This document shows positions 20,999 through 30,545 of a stretch of DNA of 64,000 bases, one piece after another (position 1 is the first letter of the stretch; every line of letters begins with the position of its first letter). The notes under the pieces were generated by a model. The model made no database searches and had not been told where the DNA came from. It saw nothing but the letters and a program-made list of their open reading frames with translations. Made by a program: the position numbers and the translations under genes. The DNA is from Paenibacillus swuensis. Its GTDB lineage: Bacteria > Bacillota > Bacilli > Paenibacillales > DY6. Location of the stretch: positions 3,252,501 to 3,316,500 of the forward strand of contig NZ_CP011388.1 of the NCBI RefSeq assembly GCF_001644605.1, in the 5' to 3' direction.

Positions 20999-21122
20999 CA
21001 AACTTACGGAAGATTATAAAGTCACTCTATCCTGAAAGTAGAATAGAAGAGGGAACGGGGGTGAGGTGGAAAGTTTAAGCAGTTTCTTCCGATGCCAGCT
21101 TTCTTACGAAAGCTCTTAGCCT

Positions 21123-21172: not shown

Positions 21173-21230
21173 GAGCGGTTGTAACCACACCCCCTTCCCT
21201 CCCCATGCGCCAGATGAACTCCCATGTCAC

Positions 21231-21258
21231 TTTAATCTTTAATCTTTAATCTTTAATC
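21231..21258 (+). repeat. Four-copy TTTAATC tandem repeat
   Basis: Four exact, adjacent copies of the heptamer TTTAATC lie about 120 bases upstream of the yqeG start. Such tracts can change copy number by slippage. Confidence 0.9.
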
Positions 21259-21377
21259 TCCTTTACATTCTTTCCATCCATGAAGTATGATGATGTTTTC
21301 GACATCGTCCGCTTTTTGCATGAAAATGGGCTGATATGGTATTATCTGACGTAAGACAAACCCCAGAGGTGACGACA

Positions 21378-27668: not shown

Positions 27669-27949
27669 TATCTGTTTGAATAGTCAGGCGTTGATGAGGA
27701 GCCCGAGTTTCGTCACCATCTTCAGAGAAGCGGTGTATTGGTGTAAGCCGCTGTTGGTCGAAGCAGGATCTCGCCTCGGAGTCTTACGGCCCAAAGTTTG
27801 CGTATACACGCAAATAGATAAGCCGGAACGTTTCACCCGCGTTAAGGGTTAGAGTGAGTAGGGGCAAAGAATGCCTTCTGCTAACTAGGGTGGTACCACG
27901 GGAATCAAACCTCGTCCCTAGCGATTACGCTAGGGGCAGAGGTTTTTTT
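27669..27949 (+). promoter_or_regulatory. T-box riboswitch of leuS
   Basis: The leader has the hallmark AGGGTGGTACCACGG at 27887-27901, the antiterminator sequence that pairs with the acceptor end of uncharged tRNA. A stem I with CAGAGAAGCGG and GGTGTAAGCCGC (AG bulge and terminal loop) lies at 27722-27752. A terminator with arms around CCTAGCG/CGCTAGG and a run of seven T ends at 27949. A CUC leucine codon at 27770-27772 is in the expected specifier area, but I could not fold stem I well enough to prove it. Low charged tRNA-Leu should allow read-through into leuS. Confidence 0.92.
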
Positions 27950-27962
27950 GTTTGGAAACGAA

Positions 27963-28092
27963 GCAAAACTCAGCTTATGCTTACGAAGTCAGTTTTGCTA
28001 AAGCAAAACTCAGCTTATGCTTACGAAGTTAGTTTGCCTAAAGGCAAAACTCAGCTTATGCTTACGAAGTCAGTTTTGCTAAAGCAAAACTC
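27963..28092 (+). repeat. Tandem hairpin repeat, three copies plus a partial, in the leuS leader
   Basis: Three units of 40-41 bases start at 27963, 28003 and 28044, each GCAAAACTCAGCTTATGC followed by TTACGAAGT and AGTTTTGC, and a fourth start (GCAAAACTC) lies at 28084. Neighbouring units form hairpins AGTTTTGC-TAAA-GCAAAACT. In the second junction the stem changes to GCC...GGC on both sides, a compensatory change. It lies after the T-box terminator and ends at the leuS ribosome site. The period is not a multiple of three, so it is not coding. Confidence 0.95.
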
Positions 28093-28109
28093 TCAGGAGG
28101 AAAACAAAC

Positions 28110-30545
28110 ATGGAAAAAGAACAAGGCTACATCCCCCAAACCATCGAACCCAAATGGCAGCAGCACTGGGATCAGAACAAAACATTCAAAGTGCTTGAAA
28201 ACAGCGACAAGCCCAAGTTCTACGCGCTGGATATGTTCCCTTATCCGTCCGGTGACGGCCTGCACGTAGGTCATCCTGAAGGTTATACGGCCACGGATAT
28301 CGTATCCCGCTATAAACGGGCGCGCGGCTACAACGTGTTACACCCTATGGGCTGGGACGCGTTCGGCTTGCCGGCGGAGCAATATGCTCTGAACACGGGG
28401 AACCACCCGCAGGGCTTCACAACCAAGAACATTGATAATTTCCGCCGTCAGATTAAATCCCTGGGGTTCTCCTACGACTGGGACTGCGAAATTTCCACGA
28501 CGGATCCGGCTTACTATAAGTGGACGCAGTGGATCTTCATCCAGTTGTACAATAAAGGTCTTGCTTACGTGGCTGAAGTGCCTGTGAACTGGTGCGCGGA
28601 GTTGGGTACGGTATTGGCGAATGAAGAAGTTATTGATGGCAAAAGTGAGCGCGGCGGCTTCCCGGTTGTGCGCAAACCGATGCGCCAATGGATTCTGAAA
28701 ATTACCGAGTATGCCGAGCGTCTGCTGGAAGATCTGGAAGAACTGGACTGGTCGGAGAGCATCAAAGATATGCAACGGAACTGGATTGGCAAATCCAAGG
28801 GCGCGGAGGTTGTCTTTGATATCGACGGTCACCAGGATGCGAAGCTAACGGTCTTCACAACTCGTCCAGACACACTGTTCGGCGCAACGTATGCGGTTCT
28901 GGCGCCGGAGCATGCTCTTGTGGAGTCGATTACAACAGCGGAGCAACAGGATGCGGTGAAGCAATATCAAGAGAAGGCGGCGCGCAAGTCCGACCTTGAG
29001 CGCACCGACCTTGCCAAAGATAAGACAGGCGTATTCACAGGCGCCTATGCCTTGAATCCCGCGAACGGTGCAAAGCTTCCGATCTGGATCGCGGATTATG
29101 TGTTGGCAGGTTATGGCACAGGAGCAATCATGGCCGTTCCGGGCCACGATCAGCGTGACTGGGAATTCGCCAAGCAATTCGAGCTGCCGATCGTTGAGGT
29201 GGTTGCGGGCGGCAATGTGCAAGAAGAAGCTTATACGGCCGCGGGTCCTCACGTGAATTCGGAATTCTTGAACGGACTCAACAATGAAGACGCGATTGCC
29301 AAGATGATTACCTGGCTGGAAGGCGAAGGAAAAGGTCAGGGCAAGGTGACCTATCGTCTGCGTGACTGGTTGTTCAGCCGTCAGCGTTATTGGGGTGAGC
29401 CGATTCCGATTCTTCATCTGGAAGACGGAACGATGAAGCCTGTTCCCGACGATCAATTGCCGTTAATGCTGCCGGAAACGAACGAAATCAAACCGTCCGG
29501 TACCGGTGAATCTCCGCTGGCGAACGTGACCGACTGGGTCAACACGATTGATCCGGAAACCGGCATGAAAGCGATGCGTGAAACAAACACCATGCCTCAG
29601 TGGGCAGGCAGCTGCTGGTATTACCTGCGGTTTATCGATCCGCATAACGACAAGGAGCTGTGCTCTCAAGACAAGCAGCAGCAATGGCTTCCCGTAGATC
29701 TTTATATCGGCGGTGCAGAGCATGCAGTGCTTCACTTGCTCTATGCCCGCTTCTGGCATAAAGTGTTGTATGACCTGGGTGTTGTCGCAACCAAAGAGCC
29801 GTTCCATAAGCTTGTCAACCAAGGTATGATTCTGGGCGATAACAACGAGAAAATGAGTAAATCCCGCGGCAATGTCATTAATCCGGATGATATCGTGAAG
29901 GAATTCGGCGCGGACACACTGCGGATGTACGAAATGTTCATGGGCCCGCTGGAAGCGACGAAGCCTTGGAACACGAACGGTGTGGAAGGAACCTACCGCT
30001 TCCTGAGCCGGATCTGGCGTCTGTTTGTATCCGACAATGGGCAATTGCATCCTAAAATTACAGAAGCGGATAATGGTACGGAAACCTTCCAGCGCACATG
30101 GCACAAAACGATCAAAAAAATAACGGAGGATTACGAGAACCTCCGCTTTAATACCGCGATTTCGCAGCTTATGATATTTGTGAACGAAGCCTACAAAGCA
30201 GATCATGTTCCAATGCAAGCCGCCAAAGACTTCGTTCAGATGCTGGCGCCTCTGGCTCCTCACATCGCGGAAGAACTTTGGGAGAAGCTGGGTCACAGCG
30301 AATCCATTACTTACGCGGCATGGCCGACGTACGACGAAGTGCGGACGGTGGAGAACGAAGTGGAAATCGTTGTCCAAGTCAACGGTAAAATCGTAGACCG
30401 GATTACGATCGCTGCCGATCTGAACGAAGCGGACATGGAAGCGAAAGCGATGGAGTCCGATAAAGTAATTGAAGCGATGAACGGGAAAGCCGTGCGCAAG
30501 GTCATTGCGGTTAAAGGCAAAATTGTAAATATCGTTGTTGGCTGA
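28110..30545 (+). CDS. leuS: Leucyl-tRNA synthetase
   Basis: Class I aminoacyl-tRNA synthetase of 811 residues charging tRNA-Leu. The HIGH-type motif HVGH is at residues 52-55 within [15 protein letters not shown], and KMSKS at 581-585; the editing domain lies between. CAGGAGG at 28094-28100 precedes the ATG. The bacterial-type length is normal. Its leader carries a T-box and the hairpin repeat. It separates yqeM from comER, which are closer together in B. subtilis. Confidence 0.98.

Follow-up and report, generated by a model that had tools for sequence, protein, structure and literature searches.

A dispersed family of linker-and-hairpin repeats docked on Shine-Dalgarno sites in Paenibacillus and its relatives

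In Paenibacillus swuensis a tandem array of hairpin repeats separates the T-box of leuS from its start codon, which raises the question of whether this array is part of the control of leuS or belongs to something more widespread. The array lies in a window of 64,000 nucleotides, the whole stretch of P. swuensis DNA analysed here (its own genome is labelled G000 below). The leader is laid out as follows, with unit scores given for two covariance models, R1 and R2.

27682..27922 (+): T-box leader of leuS (Rfam RF00230, 89.5 bits, E 3.3e-20); context, outside the repeat family
27910..27949 (+): T-box terminator/antiterminator region, CCTCGTCCCTAGCG-ATTA-CGCTAGGGGCAGAGG then T7, read in the sequence
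27963..27970 (+): partial copy, the bare 3' arm GCAAAACT without a 5' arm, read in the sequence
27971..28010 (+): unit 1 (R1 64.2 bits, R2 67.2 bits); linker 27971-27990, hairpin AGTTTTGC-TAAA-GCAAAACT 27991-28010
28011..28051 (+): unit 2 (R1 45.1 bits, R2 53.1 bits); linker 28011-28030, hairpin AGTTTGCC-TAAA-GGCAAAACT 28031-28051, with a bulged A
28052..28091 (+): unit 3 (R1 64.2 bits, R2 67.2 bits); linker 28052-28071, hairpin 28072-28091, ending 3 bases 5' of the Shine-Dalgarno site
28095..28100 (+): Shine-Dalgarno (SD) site AGGAGG of leuS, in the context CTCAGGAGG, read in the sequence
28110..30545 (+): leuS, leucine--tRNA ligase, 811 aa (NCBIfam TIGR00396, 1160.6 bits against a cut-off of 548.4)

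The array comprises three 49-base copies starting at 27963, 28003 and 28044, with start-to-start distances of 40 and 41 bases. Tandem Repeats Finder scored it 234 with 91% matches, the next best array of the window reaching 60. The first-pass annotation had described a tandem array with a partial copy between the T-box terminator and the ribosome site; its coordinates and spacing agree with the sequence, with Tandem Repeats Finder and with the whole units found by R1, what it called a partial copy corresponds to the lone 3' arm at 27963-27970, and the array does end 3 bases 5' of AGGAGG, ahead of the ATG at 28110. Upstream, the RF00230 match covers the whole model at slightly under the gathering score (89.5 against 93 bits), and the AGGGTGGTACCACG motif and terminator of a T-box are both present. 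No Rfam 15 family matched the window at or above its gathering score, and the best sub-threshold match of the array (E 0.51) is at chance level. Nor do the array hairpins qualify as intrinsic terminators, since the next linker or CTNAGGAGG follows them and not a direct T run.

Hairpins 1 and 3 both read AGTTTTGC-TAAA-GCAAAACT, with 8 perfect pairs each. The middle hairpin had been thought to differ in a matching way on both sides of the stem, and it does gain an extra C-G pair at the loop; its 5' arm, however, is one T shorter while the opposite side is unchanged, and this uncompensated loss leaves 8 pairs with a bulged A. The middle stem is probably the 9-pair variant AGTTTTGCC/GGCAAAACT, known from other sites, minus one T. 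Folding of the array is more stable than that of shuffled sequences (z = -2.6; 0 of 200 shuffles). The earlier expectation of three hairpins in every message corresponds to one of two competing folds: three separate hairpins are predicted only with pairing restricted to local (-34.8 kcal/mol), whereas the predicted minimum-energy fold engages units 1 and 3 in nested long-range pairing (-40.2 kcal/mol). In the predicted equilibrium ensemble the probability of being unpaired is 0.59-0.90 for the bases of the SD, and the site would be mostly open.

The position of the array between T-box terminator and SD is what one would expect of a regulatory add-on to this T-box. In the leuS leaders of 79 other Paenibacillales genomes, however, the T-box was found in 77 within the stretch read and the array in none, the single linker-like match (in G288) being a chance string at the SD. 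These leaders refute a conserved device specific to leuS and lend no support to a tie of the array to leuS or its T-box, which the title of the first-pass annotation had suggested. Units also precede unrelated genes and rRNA genes, and we regard any leuS-specific add-on as very improbable. With an occupancy of 1 in 80 genomes, the leuS array would most simply be a local gain in the lineage of G000, a gain not polarisable further with G000 as the only member of its family among the genomes compared. At other leuS loci of the order (L277, L305, L307, L309, L315 and L340) the interval from T-box terminator to SD contains different, unrelated repeats or else long insertions, and it seems to be a permissive landing place.

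Beyond leuS, the picture is that of a family: the leuS array is one site of a dispersed repeat of about 40 bases in Paenibacillus and relatives, as read from the sequence of many genomes. Each unit consists of a conserved linker, AGCTTATGCTTACGAAGT, and a hairpin whose stem is variable yet paired. A DNA query matched 186 of 296 Paenibacillales genomes, which belong to 23 of 48 genera. Within the genomes listed, two large families and that of G000 had matches and the other families had none. Model R2, applied to no more than 150 candidates in each genome, gave 4 to 155 matches in ten further genomes, counts that include some reverse-strand echoes of the palindromes and whose high values mean at least that many; copies per genome reach about 150, in tandem arrays of 1-11 units. 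Within G000, two rRNA operons contain the array core unchanged over 40 bases (100% identity), and further, diverged copies lie elsewhere. The well-scoring R2 sites of this genome are leuS (three units), rpmJ, hpf, three before 5S rRNA and four after 23S rRNA. Two of the 5S-side copies, L381:752-791 (-) and L382:2319-2357 (+), are in sense orientation and end 5 bases before 5S, a distance measured for these two against the Rfam 5S boundaries. A dispersed palindromic family, which the first-pass annotation had suggested looking for in the full genome, is therefore present in G000 and order-wide. Exact linker matches outside Paenibacillaceae lack SD docking and look like chance.

Since the covariance model was built without the SD, the position of the element relative to this site provides an independent test. 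Among the 40 top-ranked arrays of two genomes (20 from G073 and 20 from G175), a sample of top-scoring copies that may favour intact ones, all 40 lie on the sense strand and in all 40 the last hairpin ends 1-5 bases 5' of the SD. The start codon follows 13-19 bases past the hairpin, against a chance of 0.35% per position in the same DNA; the start codons at L232, L242 and L249 were assigned by reading the sequence. One extra weak match, L255, is not an array of the linker-hairpin kind. Top-ranked copies of six further genomes are likewise docked, with one exception (L223 in G074); a sample ranked on score leans towards consensus stems. When arrays were chosen by the exact linker alone, 55 of 82 proved docked, with a distance of exactly 3 bases in 34; the undocked remainder comprises 16 in a longer element, mostly of P. 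contaminans, and 11 without an SD.

The docked arrays precede a broad set of genes: tcdA-like, purU, cinA, pheT, fni, gltD, dusB, hslU, ruvB, sigE, pyrR, NAD kinase, ribBA and mltG are among them. About 31 of the 40 sampled arrays have the end of a same-strand ORF no more than about 100 bases upstream, and from this gene order most docked arrays seem to be operon-internal.

One reading is a translated leader peptide, running from the linker ATG to the SD (TAAGGAGG/TTAGGAGG) and coupling translation to the next gene. Of 138 last units, 129 have the linker ATG, and the SD is often overlapped by a TAA or TAG resembling a stop. No reading frame is maintained, however: the length from ATG to hairpin end falls 69/39/30 over the three classes modulo 3, and the stops are scattered. 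We find this explanation hardly credible.

The linker and the stem behave in opposite ways. Among 222 distinct units the linker ATGCTTACGAAG is almost invariant, with two G positions at 100% and several others above 98%, an invariance that is partly an effect of a search allowing two mismatches. The stems of the same units comprise 86 different 5' arms; 98.4% of cells are nonetheless paired, and two-sided changes occur in 8 of 8 pairs. Cells with two-sided changes number 84 against 11.5 in shuffles, a signal that collapses when the partners are slid by one column. These counts exclude the MAFFT alignment A1, where units of unequal length are out of register. Conservation of the fold over the stem sequence, a weak case within the window, thus becomes a strong one over the family. 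The alignment used for the pair counts was fitted to the structure, so the orthologous atpC site served as an independent look: here a copy occupies the same place in 15 genomes of several genera with 14 distinct stems, and pairing is 1.0 within a genome against 0.69 with arms swapped between genomes.

The stem is also polar. The 5' arms are T-rich, with TTT in 69 of 84 distinct arms and AAA in none of the 84, unlike what is expected for a symmetric DNA palindrome.

Two additional structures involving the linker were considered and rejected. A mini-hairpin within it (GCUU-ACG-AAGU) is not kept, GATG replacing GAAG in 32 of 222 units. A helix enclosing the linker, formed by a 3' arm with the next 5' arm, pairs completely for only 32 of the 82 unlike neighbours; in this comparison the value of 1.0 for a unit's own hairpin arises by construction. 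Pairing of the linker with rRNA is likewise not supported: the longest exact complement is 8 bases and the best duplex (-12.8 kcal/mol) is weaker than those of 5 of 5 shuffled linkers.

Covariation of this kind could in principle come from mutation without selection on RNA, with template switching (quasi-palindrome correction) perfecting the hairpins and slippage multiplying them. Such correction alters both arms together, and the wide variation in tandem copy number would follow as well; yet this mechanism explains neither docking at a fixed distance from the SD, nor a conserved unpaired linker, nor the restriction of T-rich 5' arms to the sense strand. A purely mutational by-product is accordingly improbable.

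Individual copies come and go. The first-pass annotation had named uncompensated stem changes in related strains as evidence against its reading, and at some sites they do occur. In genus g27, G121, G125, G175 and G077 have an intact atpC element, G113 (one of the 15 copies above, reduced to a 4-pair stem) and G196 have a decayed one, and G099, G141 and G056 have none. These decayed copies indicate that single copies are dispensable, although pairing is kept across the family, and the patchiness at atpC and leuS points to a family that is maintained while its single copies turn over. As regards the terminal inverted repeats and target-site duplication of a MITE, each unit is its own hairpin, and the leuS and atpC sites compared yielded no pair of a filled and an empty site with clean borders. 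In the atpD-atpC spacer of G000 (L370), where relatives carry the element, another palindrome, GCTGCCCGTCTAACTTCAGGCGGCAGC, precedes a CTTAGGAGG ribosome site.

Dispersal, docking on SD and start codon, covariation, stem polarity and patchy occupancy are all read from the sequence. An unpaired linker under constraint, a stem constrained in structure only, strand polarity and SD docking together suggest an element that is read as RNA. We propose, with a probability of roughly 0.55, that these linker-plus-hairpin modules, found across Paenibacillales, act in the mRNA on the gene that they precede, as 5'-leader modules. In each module the conserved single-stranded linker AGCUUAUGCUUACGAAGU leads into a hairpin whose 3' side stops 2-4 bases short of the SD. 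The hairpin would set a structured boundary beside the open SD and could shield the downstream cistron from 5'-to-3' decay after an upstream cut, located in the linker or in the preceding gene; as a result, the expression level of each operon gene would be tuned. The invariant linker may be read by a postulated nuclease, protein or small RNA. Slippage or recombination would produce the tandem copies, which would be largely redundant. In the leuS message, the array could be a stabilising or SD-insulating leader, acting after T-box read-through. The copies directly before 5S rRNA fit a role as processing boundary. Counting against the mRNA module, low site conservation (1 in 80 at leuS) together with decay at some sites implies that no copy is indispensable, no common pathway or function was found among the genes served, and undocked copies exist. 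A degenerate motif is reported for RNase Y sites (PMC11780869), and the linker is more conserved than such a site would need.

A wider version of the mRNA-module reading, which we hold only tentatively, would be a genome-wide post-transcriptional system, in which a putative small RNA, nuclease or RNA-binding protein recognises the invariant linker AGCUUAUGCUUACGAAGU next to an SD-docked hairpin constrained in structure only, and thereby sets the output or stability of many cistrons at once, the number of units providing graded control.

Stabilising leaders have precedents. STAB-SD sequences and 5' stabilisers of Bacillus mRNAs are leader features that protect transcripts from 5' decay; they resemble the present element in being leader features at the SD, but they are not known to form a repeat family or to carry a linker with a covarying hairpin. 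Stabilising 5' hairpins following RNase Y processing are known in cggR-gapA and glnRA of B. subtilis (PMC11780869), and in the cip-cel operon stem-loops lie where the transcript is processed (PMC4423207). Like the element described here, these are hairpins 5' of an operon-internal cistron in Firmicutes, for which a role in setting the ratio of operon genes has been proposed. Unlike it, they are single-locus features of no shared sequence, whereas the present repeats form a family, share a conserved linker and dock on the SD. Hairpins that protect the product below a cut offer the closest working analogy, one that geometry alone suggests in our case.

The main rival to the mRNA-module reading is selfish spread: a palindromic repeat of REP, BOX or MITE type, with a postulated enzyme that targets or carries the SD (CTAAGGAGG/CTTAGGAGG), tolerated before start codons and of no benefit to the cell. 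Known small bacterial repeats are mostly parasite-like, intergenic and placed regardless of ribosome sites. Dispersal, a copy number that varies, tandem runs of 1-11 units and patchy, decaying orthologous sites would all suit such a repeat, as would the longer element, mostly of P. contaminans, which has the same core, inverted outer ends and a MITE-like look. Strand polarity of the stem speaks against it. So does orientation: none of the 40 sampled G073/G175 arrays is antisense or between convergent genes, where BOX, RUP and SPRITE are over-represented (PMC3049150). The BOX elements of Streptococcus pneumoniae, boxA-boxB(n)-boxC (PMC3049150), share dispersal, variable tandem middle units, an RNA-foldable sequence and the ability to affect downstream expression; they have fixed outer modules and are over-represented between convergent genes, while here a single unit type is sense and SD-docked. 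Judged by architecture rather than by BOX profiles, our arrays contain one unit type with no flanking boxA or boxC; the SD forms one border, and varied sequence lies beyond the opposite end.

REP/BIME elements, spread with RAYT (Y1) transposases, likewise are short dispersed palindromes with a conserved sequence beside the hairpin. They sit at 3' ends, however, whereas the present elements precede start codons and their stems vary freely within one genome. A Y1/RAYT transposase was rejected as a requirement, PF01797 being present in G073 but absent from G000 and from the copy-rich G175, in which the element has at least about 140 matches. We consider selfish spread without benefit possible but doubtful. 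Both readings may hold: being harmless or useful at SD sites would let a repeat spread.

The family is a kind of small interspersed palindromic repeat, to which SD docking is the distinguishing addition. Our literature search, with most subscription journals outside it, found no paper with the linker sequence or with such Paenibacillus repeats, and the family is apparently undescribed. It joins dispersal with exact placement at translation starts, and shows covariation and strand polarity as well. At tens to about 150 copies per genome in much of Paenibacillales, the family would put an unnoticed RNA module at many operon-internal ribosome sites of a major bacterial group, and the module could serve as a ready-made leader for expression tuning.

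Other repeats were seen alongside. P. contaminans carries the longer dispersed element sharing the linker core, GGTAAACGCG(N4)GTCC..AGCTTATGCTTACGAAGTCGCTTTCTTCGAAAGCGTTTAGGACGGCGAAGCCGTTTATCCTTG, whose outer ends are able to pair and which is not SD-docked (L079, L085, L101, L102, L103, L106, L110, L124, L138, L139, L145, L149 and L167). Within the window, a weak, diverged single unit at 21077-21114 (+) scores 24.1 bits with R1 and 19 bits with R2, its hairpin being AGCTTTCTTACGAAAGCT with no SD downstream. At 21230-21259 lies a perfect tandem of the 7-base unit CTTTAAT, in 4.3 copies.
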